A stretch of 64,000 nt of DNA, taken from assembly GCA_963971535.1 (NCBI GenBank), contig OZ020589.1:81041184-81105183 (forward strand). The letters run 5' to 3'. The DNA comes from Notolepis coatsorum (taxonomy: Eukaryota; Chordata; Actinopteri; Aulopiformes; Paralepididae). The position numbers and the translations under genes were made by a program. This document shows positions 20,336-26,041 of the stretch, in pieces. Within the stretch, counting starts at the first letter, position 1, and every line of letters begins with the position of its first letter. A model generated the notes under the pieces. It was not told where the DNA came from and did no database searches. It saw nothing but the letters and a program-made list of their open reading frames with translations.

Positions 20336-20371
20336 CCCCTCCCCAATTAGTCAAATTACATAGTCCTGTAG

Positions 20372-20668
20372 CGAAGGTTATCCAATAACCCTAGTTATGT
20401 GAATACTGGCTGAGAGTTCCGCTCTAGCCTTTAGTGGGATATTCATCATTCGTGCACATATTGTGCGTGCATTGAAAATAGTTCTATGCACCTACATCCA
20501 TCGTGGCCATGCCTGCCCTGTGTTTCCTTAAAACACAGGAGGTGGTCACCTCCACGCCCTTCCGAGTCTGAATTTCACACGTGAAAAAAACAGCCAAGGG
20601 TCCTCAGGGCGTGAAGAGTGGAACGCTCAGCCAGTATTCACATAACTAGGGTTATAGGATAACCTTCG
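20372..20668. mobile_element. 297-bp inverted-repeat module next to the DIRS-like element (fossil)
   Basis: About 50 bp at each end are inverted (CGAAGGTTATCC, then ATAACCCTAGTTATGTG). Inside the left arm is a copy of the terminal block of the neighbouring element (TTCCGCTCTAGCCTTTAGTG). It abuts that element exactly, at its downstream side, mirroring 19287-19574. Confidence 0.7.
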
Positions 20669-21517
20669 TTATGTTTCATCTGTCTGAGCATTCCGCTCTA
20701 GCCTTTAGTGGGAACAAAAAAAGGGAGCGGACGCGCAGCCGCTGATAAATGCACCCCCTGAGGGCCCTTACGTCCATCAAAACGGGGAGGGGGGTCTTGT
20801 CCCCCCGCTAGTCCTAACAAGGAGCGGGGGGGTAGAAAACTCCGACCAATATGCGTAATAGGGAACAGCCACCCTAGGACGCACAACGTGAGTGGGACCG
20901 TGTGTGAAAACACCCTGCGGTCTACACCCACACACTCCTGCTAGCCCACCTGGTGAGGGGGAGGGTGAAAAGCCTGTAGCACAATATCCCTGGAGCAATA
21001 AGAACTCCGTATATTTTTTGGCACAAAGGCTGGATTGGGCCTCAGAGTAACGCTGTATAGACAGACACCGAAAGAGCGCATAGCTTACCCACACATTTAG
21101 CAGAGGTGATGGCCAAAAGGAATGCCATCTTGAAAGACAGCCGATCCAACGGCGCCTGCTCAAGAGGTTCAAACGGGGCCCCCAACTGCCCCACCAGGAC
21201 TAGTTGGAGGTCCCAACTGGGAGACAGAGCCCGTTCAACAGGCTTGAGGCGCCGTGTGCCCAGCAAGAAACGTCTCACGAGAGGGTGGCTGAATAACGTT
21301 TTGCCCTCAAAGAAGATATAGCCGCGGCATATACTTTCACTGTCGAGGCCGAGAGCCTATCCAGGATAGACTGGAGGAAGGACAGAACCGAGTTCAGGGG
21401 ACATTATACGGGGTCCAGGCCCTCAGCCTCACACCATTCTCAAAACATACGCCACTTCCATGCGTAAACTGCGGTAGTGGACAGAGTGCGCGCGTTTTGG
21501 ATGGTGTTATTCACAGC

Positions 21518-24500
21518 TATAAGGGCAACCGAACAACAAATAGATGCCAGTGAGGGAATATAGTACGAAGCTCTTTCCAACACGTGGTGCTTGTTGATAA
21601 TAAAGTATGTATCCTCGTTGAGTGCATTTAAAAGTTTTATTTTCGCTTGCAGAGTGGAAAAAGCAAAGCATAACGTAACCTCTGTGTTTAAACTGTAACC
21701 TAAACAAACGACTAGTGCTGCAAAGTAAACCTGAAAAATAACTCAAAATAACTGAAAACAAACAAAACACCCACAATAAAAAAACTGTGTGGCTTCCCTG
21801 TGATGATTCCCCAATTCCCTCCCGCTGCACACCTGTGACACACATACAAATAGGCTGTGCCCGAGAACATCTGAGCCCTGCCTCCTATGCCCACTGCCCA
21901 GCTAATTAGTCAACACCTTCACAATAACACAGCGCCTTCATTCAATAAAGTAACCACAGAAAGATCATCAATTTGACTACAACACACCGGCCCCTAATTG
22001 CTACTGTAAGAACGTAACAATTCAACACATGCAAATCATTGTAGCCAAGTAAATAGTTCACATCAGTATTCAACTCGTAATGTTCATAGTTCATGTAATC
22101 CAATAGGGTTGGTAACCCCGCTAATAGGAAATGGGTATCAGTCTATTCAGCTTCCAATAGAAGACAGATCTTTGTGATCGGTCACTCCAGGATGTTGTAC
22201 TTGGTCCGGACATTCACAGACCGCACAAGTCCATGTCTGTCGGGAAAGGTTTGCAGTACATTGCCCAACAGCCAGGATCCATGAGGTGCATTAGAGTCCG
22301 CTACTATGATGACGTCTCCTGCGACAAAGTTCCTCTTGTCCTTTGGCCACCGTTGTCTCTTTGTCTTTTCCTCGCTGGCATCCCTCTTGTCCGACAGCTC
22401 CTGTTTCTTTTTCTTTTCCTGATTAGAGTCAACTGACATTGTCTTTACATTCCTTGTGTTCCTTGTGTGTTTGTGTGTAGCATCCACAGAGTCTCTTATC
22501 TTTGTTGTGTTTCTCCAGGGAGTCTTTCCTCTCTTTAGCCATGTCAAATATGCCCTTTTCCTCCTTCTTCTCTTTATGGTCTTTCTCTTTTGTTTTTTCT
22601 GTTGGGAAGTGGTCCAGTTCATCCTGATCAGGTGTTGAGTCTTTCCTATGGGAGTCAGAGAGGCCTGGAGAATCACTTAACTTAGCTACACAGCGTTTGT
22701 GGGATTTGTATTCCTTGTACTCCTTCACAGGACCGTCCCAACTGTCGTCCCTGTAGAGGGAGGAATCGGAGGAGAGGTCTGAGGCCCACCTGTCGTGGTG
22801 GTCATTGGAGGCACTGAGCTTGGTATCTTCCTTGTTCAGGAAACGGTTGTTGACGTCGTAACCTTCATGTGTCGGCTCCTCCTTTGGTGCCTTTTCATTT
22901 TTAGATTTCTCCTTCTCCTCCCTGGTGTTCTTCTCCTTGTCCACCTGCAGATGTTTCTCCTCTTTCTGTTCACTTTTCCTGTCAGCCTTTGAGGAGGATT
23001 TCTCCTTGGACCTTTTCTCCTCTTTGTGAGCCTTCGGTTTATCCTCCTTGGGCTTGTATTTCTCTTTGAAAGTCCTTTCCTTCTCAGCTTTTACAGGTTT
23101 CGCCCTCTTCTCCTTGGTGGATTCTTTAGCTTTCTTAATTTTCTCCTCCTTCGCCGTTCTCTGCAGCTCTTTCCCAGAAGACCAGTCCTTGTCCTCAGGT
23201 TTGATTTTTGAAAGCCGCTCCTTTGAATGATCTTTCTGAGAAATGGAGATGCGGTTGGCTGTGACTGTGGGGCAGCTAATCCCACTCTCATTGCCTCCTC
23301 TCAATGGTCCATTGACAACCCATCCCAAAAGGGTTCTAACAGCGTAGGGTCCTCTACTCCTGCTGTTTATCACCTCCCATGGCTCCATTGCTTCTGGAGC
23401 GTTCGTTCCAATTAACAGCTCCACATCAGCATCGATAGTAGGAATGTCTAAAGTGTTCAAGTATGGCCAAGCACACAAGTCTTCCTGTCGTGGGATGTTA
23501 TTGCGAGTTACAGGCATCTTACGTTGTGTGTACACATCAGGCAACTCGATGTAGGCGTCACCATTTAGTGCAGAGACCTCTAGTCCTGAGATGACATGAC
23601 TGTTGACAAAGCTCTCTTGGTTCATTGTTTTCATTAGGAATCTAGTGTTCCTTCCTCTCACATTTAGCTTCCGCATCAGTTGCTCAGAGCAGAACGTGGA
23701 TGAACTGCCGGGATCTAGGAATGCATACGTTTTTAAGATTGTGCTGCCTTTCTTTGCCTTGATCTTTACAGGCACAATAGACAAAACGCAATCCTGTGCT
23801 CCGGCCCCTATAGTCTTGGGAATGGTGACTTGACTTATTCCGTTTTCATCTCGTGTCATTTTGTCATAACTTTATTTCTTTCCATTCCCTTTCATGGATA
23901 TGGAGAATGGTAGGGTGTCTCAGGTTACATATCCTGCAAGACAGCCTACTGTGGCACTGTGAACTTATGTGCCCGACAGATAGACATCCAAAGCAAGCAC
24001 CCTTCCCTTTTAGAAAGTCAATTTTGTCACAATGCTGCTTCTTCTCCATCTTAGGGCATGTTTCCAAACTGTGGCCATCTTCACACAGCAGACAGGATCC
24101 TCTTGTTGGTTTATCAGGTAAGTCTCTCTCTTCATGATTTTCAGACTCAACAGATGCCACAGATGTAGCAAAACTGCTTCCTTTCTCCTGTATTCATCCT
24201 GCCCTGTGATGCTTTATTTCCAATCTTTAATTTTGACATTGAGACAGCAGTGTCTTGAATGTCCCCATATAGTGGATCAGATGCAATAGACACTTGTCTT
24301 TCAATGAAATTGACAACGTCACTGAAACCTGCTTGACAATGATGTCTCTCCTGATGCTCAAAAGCAATGTTTCTCCATCTGTCTCTGAGTTTGTATGGTA
24401 ACTTCATGATTATTGCCCGTAGGTTTGATGGCATATTCATCTCGGACATGTAGCTGATGTCCTCCATAGCATTATATGTGGGTTTAAAAAGCCTTTTGCC

Positions 24501-25333
24501 AAGTTCATTCTCCGTTTCATTTTGATTGACAGCTGCATCCATTTCAACGTTTATTTCCTGATTCCCCACGTTACTCATCTTTATAATTATATCAAGCAAT
24601 CGGCGGAGGCTTTATTTAGAATTACTATTGGGATTTGCCTGTATCCCGTTGCGTGAAGCCACTCCTTCCACAACTTTATTTCATTCATGAATCGGTCTCA
24701 CCGTAACTTCTTTGATGTTTAAGTCCGCGTTGCGCTGTGGGCTGTTGTACCGTGGATTGAAACGTCAGAAATGGCAATGAATGGGGCGCTGTCCCTTGAC
24801 TCCTTCCATGTCCATCAGTCTTCAAAACAATTTTGTTTGGAAGCTAGTTTTTTTTAACTTGTATAAGGGCAACCGAACAACAAAAAGATGCCAGTGAGGG
24901 AATATGGTACGAAGCTCTTTCCAACGTGTGGTGCTTGTTGATAATAAATTATGTCTTCTCGTTGAGTGCATTTAAAAGTTTTATTTCTGTTTGCAGAGTG
25001 GAAAAAGCAAAGCATAACATAAACTCTGTGTTAAACTGTAACCTAAACAAATAACTAGTGCTGCAAAATAAACCTGAAAAATAACTCAAAACAACAGAAA
25101 ACAAACAAAACATGCACGGTTGAAAAACTGTGTGGCTTCCCTGTGACTTTCCCCAATTCCCTGCCGCTGCATACCTGTGACAGACATACAAGTAGGCTGT
25201 GCCCGAGATCATCTGATTGGCTAATGCCACCTGCCCAGTTAACTAGTCAATCATCTCCACAACACCCCCACAACAACACAGCACCTTCACACAACAAAGT
25301 GACCACAGTGAACCCATCAAATTGGCTACAACA
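21518..25333 (-). mobile_element. BEL/Pao retroelement with an internal host-like segment (fossil)
   Basis: The LTRs are 21518-21985 (3' LTR, 468 bp) and 24862-25333 (5' LTR, 472 bp), with the 5-bp TSD ACAGC outside (21513-21517 and 25334-25338). On the minus strand the order is a Gag remnant (about 24.15-24.6 kb), CCHC-type zinc knuckles (about 23.9-24.15 kb), an A17-type aspartic protease with LDPGSSSTFC (about 23.25-23.86 kb), a lysine/glutamate-rich foreign segment (22495-23238), and the C-terminal Pao domain near the 3' LTR (WPKDKRNFVAGDVIIVADSN). Reverse transcriptase, RNase H and integrase are missing. The LTRs differ at many sites, so it is moderately old. It is broken and non-autonomous. 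Confidence 0.85.
22495..23238 (-). pseudogene. Captured host-gene segment resembling ANKRD11
   Basis: About 248 codons between the BEL protease and the BEL C-terminal domain do not look retroelement-like. They are very rich in Lys/Glu (ERTFKEKYKPKEDKPKAHKE and similar), followed by a serine/aspartate block, DRWASDLSSDSSLYRDDSWD, then VKEYKEYKSHKR and more Lys/Glu repeats. This composition and the DRW-SDLSSDSSLY block match my memory of the large central exon of the chromatin regulator ANKRD11 (ANKRD12 is the alternative). It is open in the same frame as the upstream protease. There are no introns, which fits either an mRNA-derived capture or a piece of a single large exon. The identity is from memory, not a search. 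Confidence 0.6.
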
Positions 25334-26041
25334 ACAGCAGTGTTAAGACGCATCCCCTCCAAATTCAACCTCTCAGCAGCCAAGCCATTAGAGGCTGCCC
25401 CAGGACAGGTGGTAGAAACACTGAGCCTTGTGCCTGAGAGAGGGCCTGCGGCGACCATGGGATAGGCCATGGCGGGGCCACCAGGAATTGAATTAGGGCT
25501 TGGAACCACAAGACTGTGCCCCAGTCCGGCGCAACCAGGATCAAAGTCTTGCGCTCCTGTCGTACCCGCTCCAACAGCTGGTTTATCAGATGTATGGGGG
25601 GGAACACATATAGATTCCCGGGTTGCCACAGGTACGTCGAGAAGGCATCCACTCCCAGAGGGAAGTTGTCCTTCCGACTGACCGAGAACCACAGGGGGCA
25701 CTGGTGGGACTGACTGCTCGCAACCAGGTCCACAGCGGCCTCCCCGAATCGGTTCCAGATCAGTCTGACTATGTCTGGGTCCAGACCCCACTCGTCTGGG
25801 TGGGGACCTCCCTGTGACATCAAATCTGCACCCATATTCTCCTTGCTGGGAATGTGGAGAGCCCTCCAGCTGTGCAGATTGCGAGATGCCCATAGCCAGA
25901 GTCTGACAGAGTAGACGTTTTTTCAACGTGCGCACAGTATGTGCACGAATGACAAATATCCCACTAAAGGCTAGAGCGGAACGCTCAGACAGATGAAACA
26001 TAACTGCCTCCTATGAAAGCATCATGGTTCAATTACGTTAC

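Follow-up and report, generated by a model that had tools for sequence, protein, structure and literature searches.

We have discovered a family of BEL/Pao retrotransposons in the fish Notolepis coatsorum in which part of a coding exon of the host gene ankrd11 was very probably captured in place of polymerase and integrase, after which the hybrid spread as a probably helper-dependent family. Host-gene transduction by a BEL/Pao element can here be followed within one assembly that holds the donor exon, the junctions, likely helpers and copies of different ages. The family would show germline multiplication and recombination of host coding sequence by a non-retroviral element, and it makes the capture route and selection on the cargo testable questions.

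The window, i.e. the whole stretch of DNA that was analysed, comprises 64,000 nucleotides of contig OZ020589.1 (assembly GCA_963971535.1, positions 81,041,184 to 81,105,183). On its minus strand, 21518-25333 is taken up by a BEL/Pao element that has an LTR at either end and is flanked by a 5-bp target-site duplication; the parts are listed in the reading direction of the element.

25334..25338, no strand: target-site duplication GCTGT, 5' side of the element
24862..25333, minus strand: 5' LTR, starting with TGTTGTAG
23872..24861, minus strand: leader and gag remnant with Zn-knuckle-like motifs
22429..23871, minus strand: stop-to-stop ORF of 480 codons, protease fused to the ANKRD11 segment
23239..23871, minus strand: BEL retropepsin, in the same frame as the ANKRD11 segment
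22684..23235, minus strand: ANKRD11 piece A, 89% identical to host exon match L047 (579 columns, gaps counted)
22357..22691, minus strand: ANKRD11 piece B, 80% identical to host exon match L048 (381 columns, gaps counted)
22191..22370, minus strand: BEL C-terminal DUF5641, in a frame other than that of the protease and ended by a stop
21985..22000, minus strand: likely polypurine tract, purine-rich and adjoining the 3' LTR, read by eye
21518..21984, minus strand: 3' LTR
21513..21517, no strand: target-site duplication GCTGT, 3' side of the element

Reverse transcriptase (RT), RNase H and integrase are absent behind the protease, where two joined ankrd11 coding pieces stand instead, followed by DUF5641. 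The original prediction, made from the window alone, had proposed such an element, with an ANKRD11-like segment replacing polymerase and integrase and open in the frame of an upstream BEL protease. This held up: ANKRD11 proteins and a host exon were matched, there is no room for pol, and one ORF of 480 codons (23871-22429) carries both protease and segment. When compared with the protein database, this ORF matched 180 proteins at E <= 0.001 among 7,992 scored candidates, and fish BEL proteins matched it through the protease half with E values down to 2.2e-73 among the matches listed; the Pfam protease models all scored below their cut-offs on the window element. The predicted BEL C-terminal domain is present as DUF5641 (Pfam E 3.7e-11), but lies in another frame and is interrupted by a stop in the window copy. 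Similarly, the segment placed at 22495..23238 is ANKRD11-derived as supposed, but its real span is 23235-22357, about 140 bases further, and it consists of two pieces with the middle missing. Piece B overlaps piece A in a short GTG-AGCT motif.

The window copy is old, with LTRs of 472 and 467 bp that share 85% identity over 479 columns (K80 0.124). Relative to other copies, about 1.6 kb of gag is absent near 24474. The copy is not open throughout, as the last ANKRD11 stretch and DUF5641 are off-frame and a stop cuts DUF5641. Inverted repeats that are 83-98% complementary flank the element at 20369-20713 and 25912-26005, which suggests that this BEL copy lies inside or beside another repeat. 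A neighbouring ORF at 26010-25243 on the minus strand, which we take to have a DIRS-like look, gave no Pfam match.

The segment alone matched 50 proteins at E <= 0.001 among 5,424 candidates. The best match (E 4.5e-78) was to a protein without a name and the best protein named ANKRD11 followed at E 4.8e-56; among the matches listed, five were named ANKRD11 or ANR11 and three more 'ankyrin repeat domain-contain...'. In local alignments the two pieces correspond to about residues 414-598 and 889-1008 of database protein P0121, the intervening stretch being missing. An ANKRD11 stretch from outside the cassette was searched against the same assembly (3.42 Gb, 4,787 contigs); among 14 candidates scored there was one match, and it sits in a 1,558-codon open frame. 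The DNA of this host exon contains the places matched by pieces A and B, and the GTG-AGCT motif of their joint is present at both. The predicted resemblance to an ANKRD11 exon, with a single host exon as best match, was thus borne out by the ANKRD11 proteins and by the one host coding exon in the genome. Across the 5' joint, the sequence of an RT-bearing relative is ..CATTGCTCAG followed by ATAGAGG, that of the host ..CATGAA followed by AAAGATC, and that of the composite ..CATTTCTCAG followed by AAAGATC, in frame and with very little overlap. Judged by these matches, the segment is of host ankrd11 origin. It has a disordered or coiled-coil look.

A 744-base cassette query returned 93 candidates, 40 of which were scored, so that the genome holds at least 40 copies; 38 of these loci (the window copy and L009-L045) were read. 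BEL protease precedes and BEL C-terminal DNA follows the cassette in 38/38, although the downstream match in L026 spans only 63 bases, and the repeated composite copies with the same junctions that the prediction had called for are therefore present. The 3' LTR end is kept at 34 loci. Because three locus pairs share 150 bases beyond the 3' LTR at 99-100% identity (L022/L037 on contig C45, L038/L043 on C32, and L041/L042 on C1626 and C1446), these represent 31 distinct insertion sites; each pair reflects a segmental duplication, haplotigs or an assembly duplication. The composite moved as a unit, as had been deduced from the LTRs and GCTGT duplication of the window copy, given the 31 distinct sites, the target duplications and the young LTRs described below. 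Relative to the host exon, the copies have in common indels of -6 (37 of 38), -6 (35), +9 at the A/B joint (37) and -42 (35), and in the tree the host row is placed next to L015 and L012, with terminal branches of about 0.025. Both the shared indels and the tree position fit a single capture.

All eight copies in which both LTRs were available (the 5' LTR of L037 being partial) have LTR pairs that are 97.6-99.5% identical (K80 0.005-0.018). Duplications of 5 bp were found at five young sites: ATAAC at L039, GAGAT at L041/L042 (the same insertion), CAAGG at L043, CAATG at L044 and ATTAC at L045. By this LTR dating, one subfamily is a recent arrival at its sites. A single gag-protease-cassette frame runs for 1,230 codons in L037 and 1,226 codons in L039, for at least 1,221 codons in L022 (the same insertion as L037) and for 1,140 codons in L019, while protease, ANKRD11 and DUF5641 share one frame in L024, L025 and L028. 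Few copies look fully open, since a check of longest frames found 37/40 to be broken, shortened or cut in gag by the range that was read. Among the 16 aligned copies of the young class that have a 45-base deletion, 15 (all but L011) share the point within piece B at which the frame stops. The gag of L039 matches DUF1759 (E 1.3e-9), and this element measures about 5.4 kb as compared to 3.8 kb for the window copy after its deletions.

Candidate helpers occur in the same genome. A protein with protease and RT (P0008) found 101 scored places among 28,032 candidates. The longest frame among these RT-bearing BEL copies has 2,233 codons, and the longest in the closest group 2,164. The L039 LTR matched 40 scored places besides short fragments; ten of these lie beside a cassette, and nine, at 92-97% identity, lie within 9 kb of one of the best 58 of the 101 RT places. 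Intact BEL relatives are likely to supply enzymes in trans, because RT-bearing BEL copies carry LTRs that are 92-97% like those of the hybrid. These autonomous elements also resemble the composite from the protease to the junction, where the sequence is nearly the same (one 120-base stretch); they differ from it in their RT frames, and no ANKRD11 part was seen in them.

When L037 and L038 are compared in 200-base windows, the cassette is 97-99% identical, whereas identity is 85-88% over the 600 bases that precede it and 83% over the 200 bases that follow it, with 80-96% in the remaining windows. At its protease end L039 is like L038 (99%), and otherwise like L037. Furthermore, L036 and L040, and also L014 and L019, are grouped differently in cassette and protease trees. 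The simplest reading of this mosaicism would be that the cassette has been swapped between BEL backbones by recombination; the selection test did not point to any special constraint acting on the cassette. The prediction was real in its central finding, but it had missed the two-piece structure, the recent activity, the long frames, the likely helper family and the cassette exchange.

BEL/Pao elements (Belpaoviridae) have LTRs of 0.2-1.2 kb, a genome of 4.2-10 kb, gag, protease, reverse transcriptase, RNase H and integrase, and an 18-nt primer-binding site for tRNA-Arg or tRNA-Gly (PMC8742986). The window LTRs fall within this range, as does the length of L039, while the window copy is shorter; gag is represented by DUF1759 in L039 and protease by homology to fish BEL proteins. 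In the copies read, protease, cassette and C-terminal part adjoin, which leaves no room for RT, RNase H or integrase. Because these enzymes are absent, the composite is a defective BEL derivative and not an autonomous member of the group. It has host coding sequence between its LTRs, as in host-gene-transducing LTR elements. Non-autonomous elements of the TRIM/LARD type have no coding capacity between their LTRs; the composite has gag-protease-ANKRD11 frames of 1,226-1,230 codons. It is a gene-transducing, probably helper-dependent LTR retrotransposon.

In oncogene-transducing retroviruses, host coding sequence replaces pol, gag stays and a helper provides the enzymes, and by analogy these may be regarded as the closest working parallel. 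The composite differs in that it is no retrovirus, no env was seen, it forms a germline family, its cargo is not an oncogene and its capture route is one that we infer. Gene capture by LTR elements is already known, from Bs1 of maize and from numerous examples in rice and sorghum (PMC13317346), and a review describes ORFs acquired downstream of pol as well as DNA caught between the LTRs that takes the place of coding sequence (PMC6431247). Bs1 is likewise an LTR element with transduced host gene fragments, but is a plant element with three host genes; the composite is a fish BEL/Pao element in which some copies read from gag-protease into the host part in one frame, and it has many recent insertions. 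A term search of a 2011 BEL/Pao survey turned up only env capture (PMC3118150), and among the matches listed from CC-licensed PMC literature (titles and abstract openings) no report of host-gene capture by BEL/Pao was found.

We propose that part of the host ankrd11 coding exon was captured once by a BEL/Pao element, replacing polymerase and integrase, most likely when reverse transcriptase switched templates illegitimately to ankrd11 RNA. The resulting element would have been in frame with the protease upstream and DUF5641 downstream, and the fusion may be translated. Since LTRs, gag, protease and the 3' end are kept, its RNA should be usable by BEL helper enzymes, and it would be packaged, copied and integrated by those of intact relatives with similar LTRs. 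A multi-copy family would then have formed, the cassette recombining between BEL backbones and one subfamily inserting lately. Most likely, the ANKRD11 part is carried as a passenger, with its open frame kept or tolerated, and does not act as a working ANKRD11 domain.

It is possible, if doubtful, that the segment instead has a function under selection, for instance as a charged region that aids Gag assembly or RNA binding. Among indels before the tail that are shared by at least two copies, 10 of 12 are multiples of three (split alignments of one event being counted once), the exceptions being a 41-base deletion in L009/L010 and the +1 indel of class 2. In the tail, clustered indels of -2, +13 and -2 add up to a net +9 in many copies. 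In pairwise comparisons of seven LTRs, which are not independent of one another, 16 of 191 indels are multiples of three. The three-base pattern in the cassette is only suggestive, because K/E codon repeats favour three-base slippage. Ratios calculated with NG86 for 23 copies against the host are 0.27-0.57. Their reading as purifying selection was dropped and the claim reduced to frame-keeping, as the means under a neutral null with the transition/transversion ratio of the LTRs were 0.75-1.00. Against this null, five host pairs gave P values of 0.025, 0.157, 0.020, 0.037 and 0.260, and the three pairs at 0.020-0.037 speak for a working part, as do other charged or coiled-coil inserts held at the same place by two database proteins, P0061 and P0065. 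The remaining two host pairs speak against it, as do class 1 versus class 3 (0.067 and 0.078) and three comparisons with class 2 (0.67-0.84), and constraint on the host side contributes to the host comparisons. L015 versus L031 gave 0.172. Selection at the residue level appears weak in older copies and is not seen in young ones, and we read the whole as past frame-keeping without clear residue-level function.

A fusion at the DNA level, in which a deletion removed pol from a BEL copy located within ankrd11 or close to it and the copy was fused to the exon and then spread, is unlikely. It has in its favour that a single coding exon contains all the captured DNA, so that RNA and DNA capture look alike and there is no missing intron pointing to RNA. 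However, two deletions with in-frame joins at both ends would be required, and the A/B joint in a short shared motif equally fits slippage of reverse transcriptase. LINE-made retrocopies are common in vertebrates, but it is very improbable that an ankrd11 retrocopy of this type inserted into a BEL element and then travelled with it: an internal exon part is joined directly to BEL DNA, and no gene 3' end or poly(A) is found at the joints. A processed pseudogene made by a LINE was accordingly rejected for the segment, which also has no target duplication of its own. A low-complexity match or an assembly error, for which the K/E-rich composition could be cited and either of which would have undone the prediction, has a negligible probability and was excluded, given the 89% DNA identity of piece A to one host exon and the same architecture in 38/38 loci on many contigs with target duplications.

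Other candidate pol-less elements came to light, although a K/E-rich query, which favours finds with charged inserts, had seeded the first search. P0061 (593 aa, from a 1,923-base ENA contig) resembles the composite in having a BEL Zn knuckle and protease, a host-like segment and DUF5641 (E 3.5e-20) in one frame. It differs in that its insert is CDK5RAP2/myomegalin-like, and thus an unrelated capture, and in that the BEL linker is retained. The segment matched 62 proteins among 1,104 candidates (best E 9.9e-32). Against the genome, the insert alone gave one 60-residue match (126 candidates scored) and was not found captured; a capture here was dropped as a candidate, the match lying away from three loci at which the whole-P0061 alignment runs about 55 residues into the insert. 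P0065, from Pleuronectes platessa, has an E/R-rich segment at the place of the cassette and DUF5641 (E 9.8e-25). At 42 of its 67 scored places in the genome, it aligns for at least about 90 residues into this insert behind gag-protease (C21:92384531, C30:115578815, C7:182460827, C8:207750586 and others), and from these alignments a second pol-less BEL family is possible. Besides an ANKRD11 copy, eleven loci have protease and BEL linker/DUF5641 only 0.5-0.8 kb apart (74 of 45,273 candidates scored), namely C35:41044056, C13:68173502, C9:81899210, C24:14347855 and seven others; this spacing is too small for RT and RNase H. Both sets of loci may be plain deletions or low-complexity alignments.

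We tentatively suggest, as a somewhat unlikely but not negligible generalization, that fish BEL/Pao elements repeatedly swap pol for in-frame host segments of charged or coiled-coil type, that such a segment works in Gag multimerisation or RNA binding, and that host sequence is shuffled between backbones. If true, there would be a recurrent class of gag-protease-host-DUF5641 elements, to which the ANKRD11 composites, P0061 with its CDK5RAP2/myomegalin segment, P0065 with its E/R-rich one and perhaps many P0065-like loci of this genome would belong.

Two further database proteins look like fused gene models and were not counted as captures. P0089 (Nerophis LOC133609140) has MHC class I domains, a BEL protease and then an ANKRD11 stretch at about residues 1096-1195, which differs from that of the window cassette; either an independent capture or a fused model would account for it. 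P0018 (Pungitius) has BEL gag-protease followed by sequence named BICD family-like cargo adapter 1, and is perhaps a BEL insertion in that gene.
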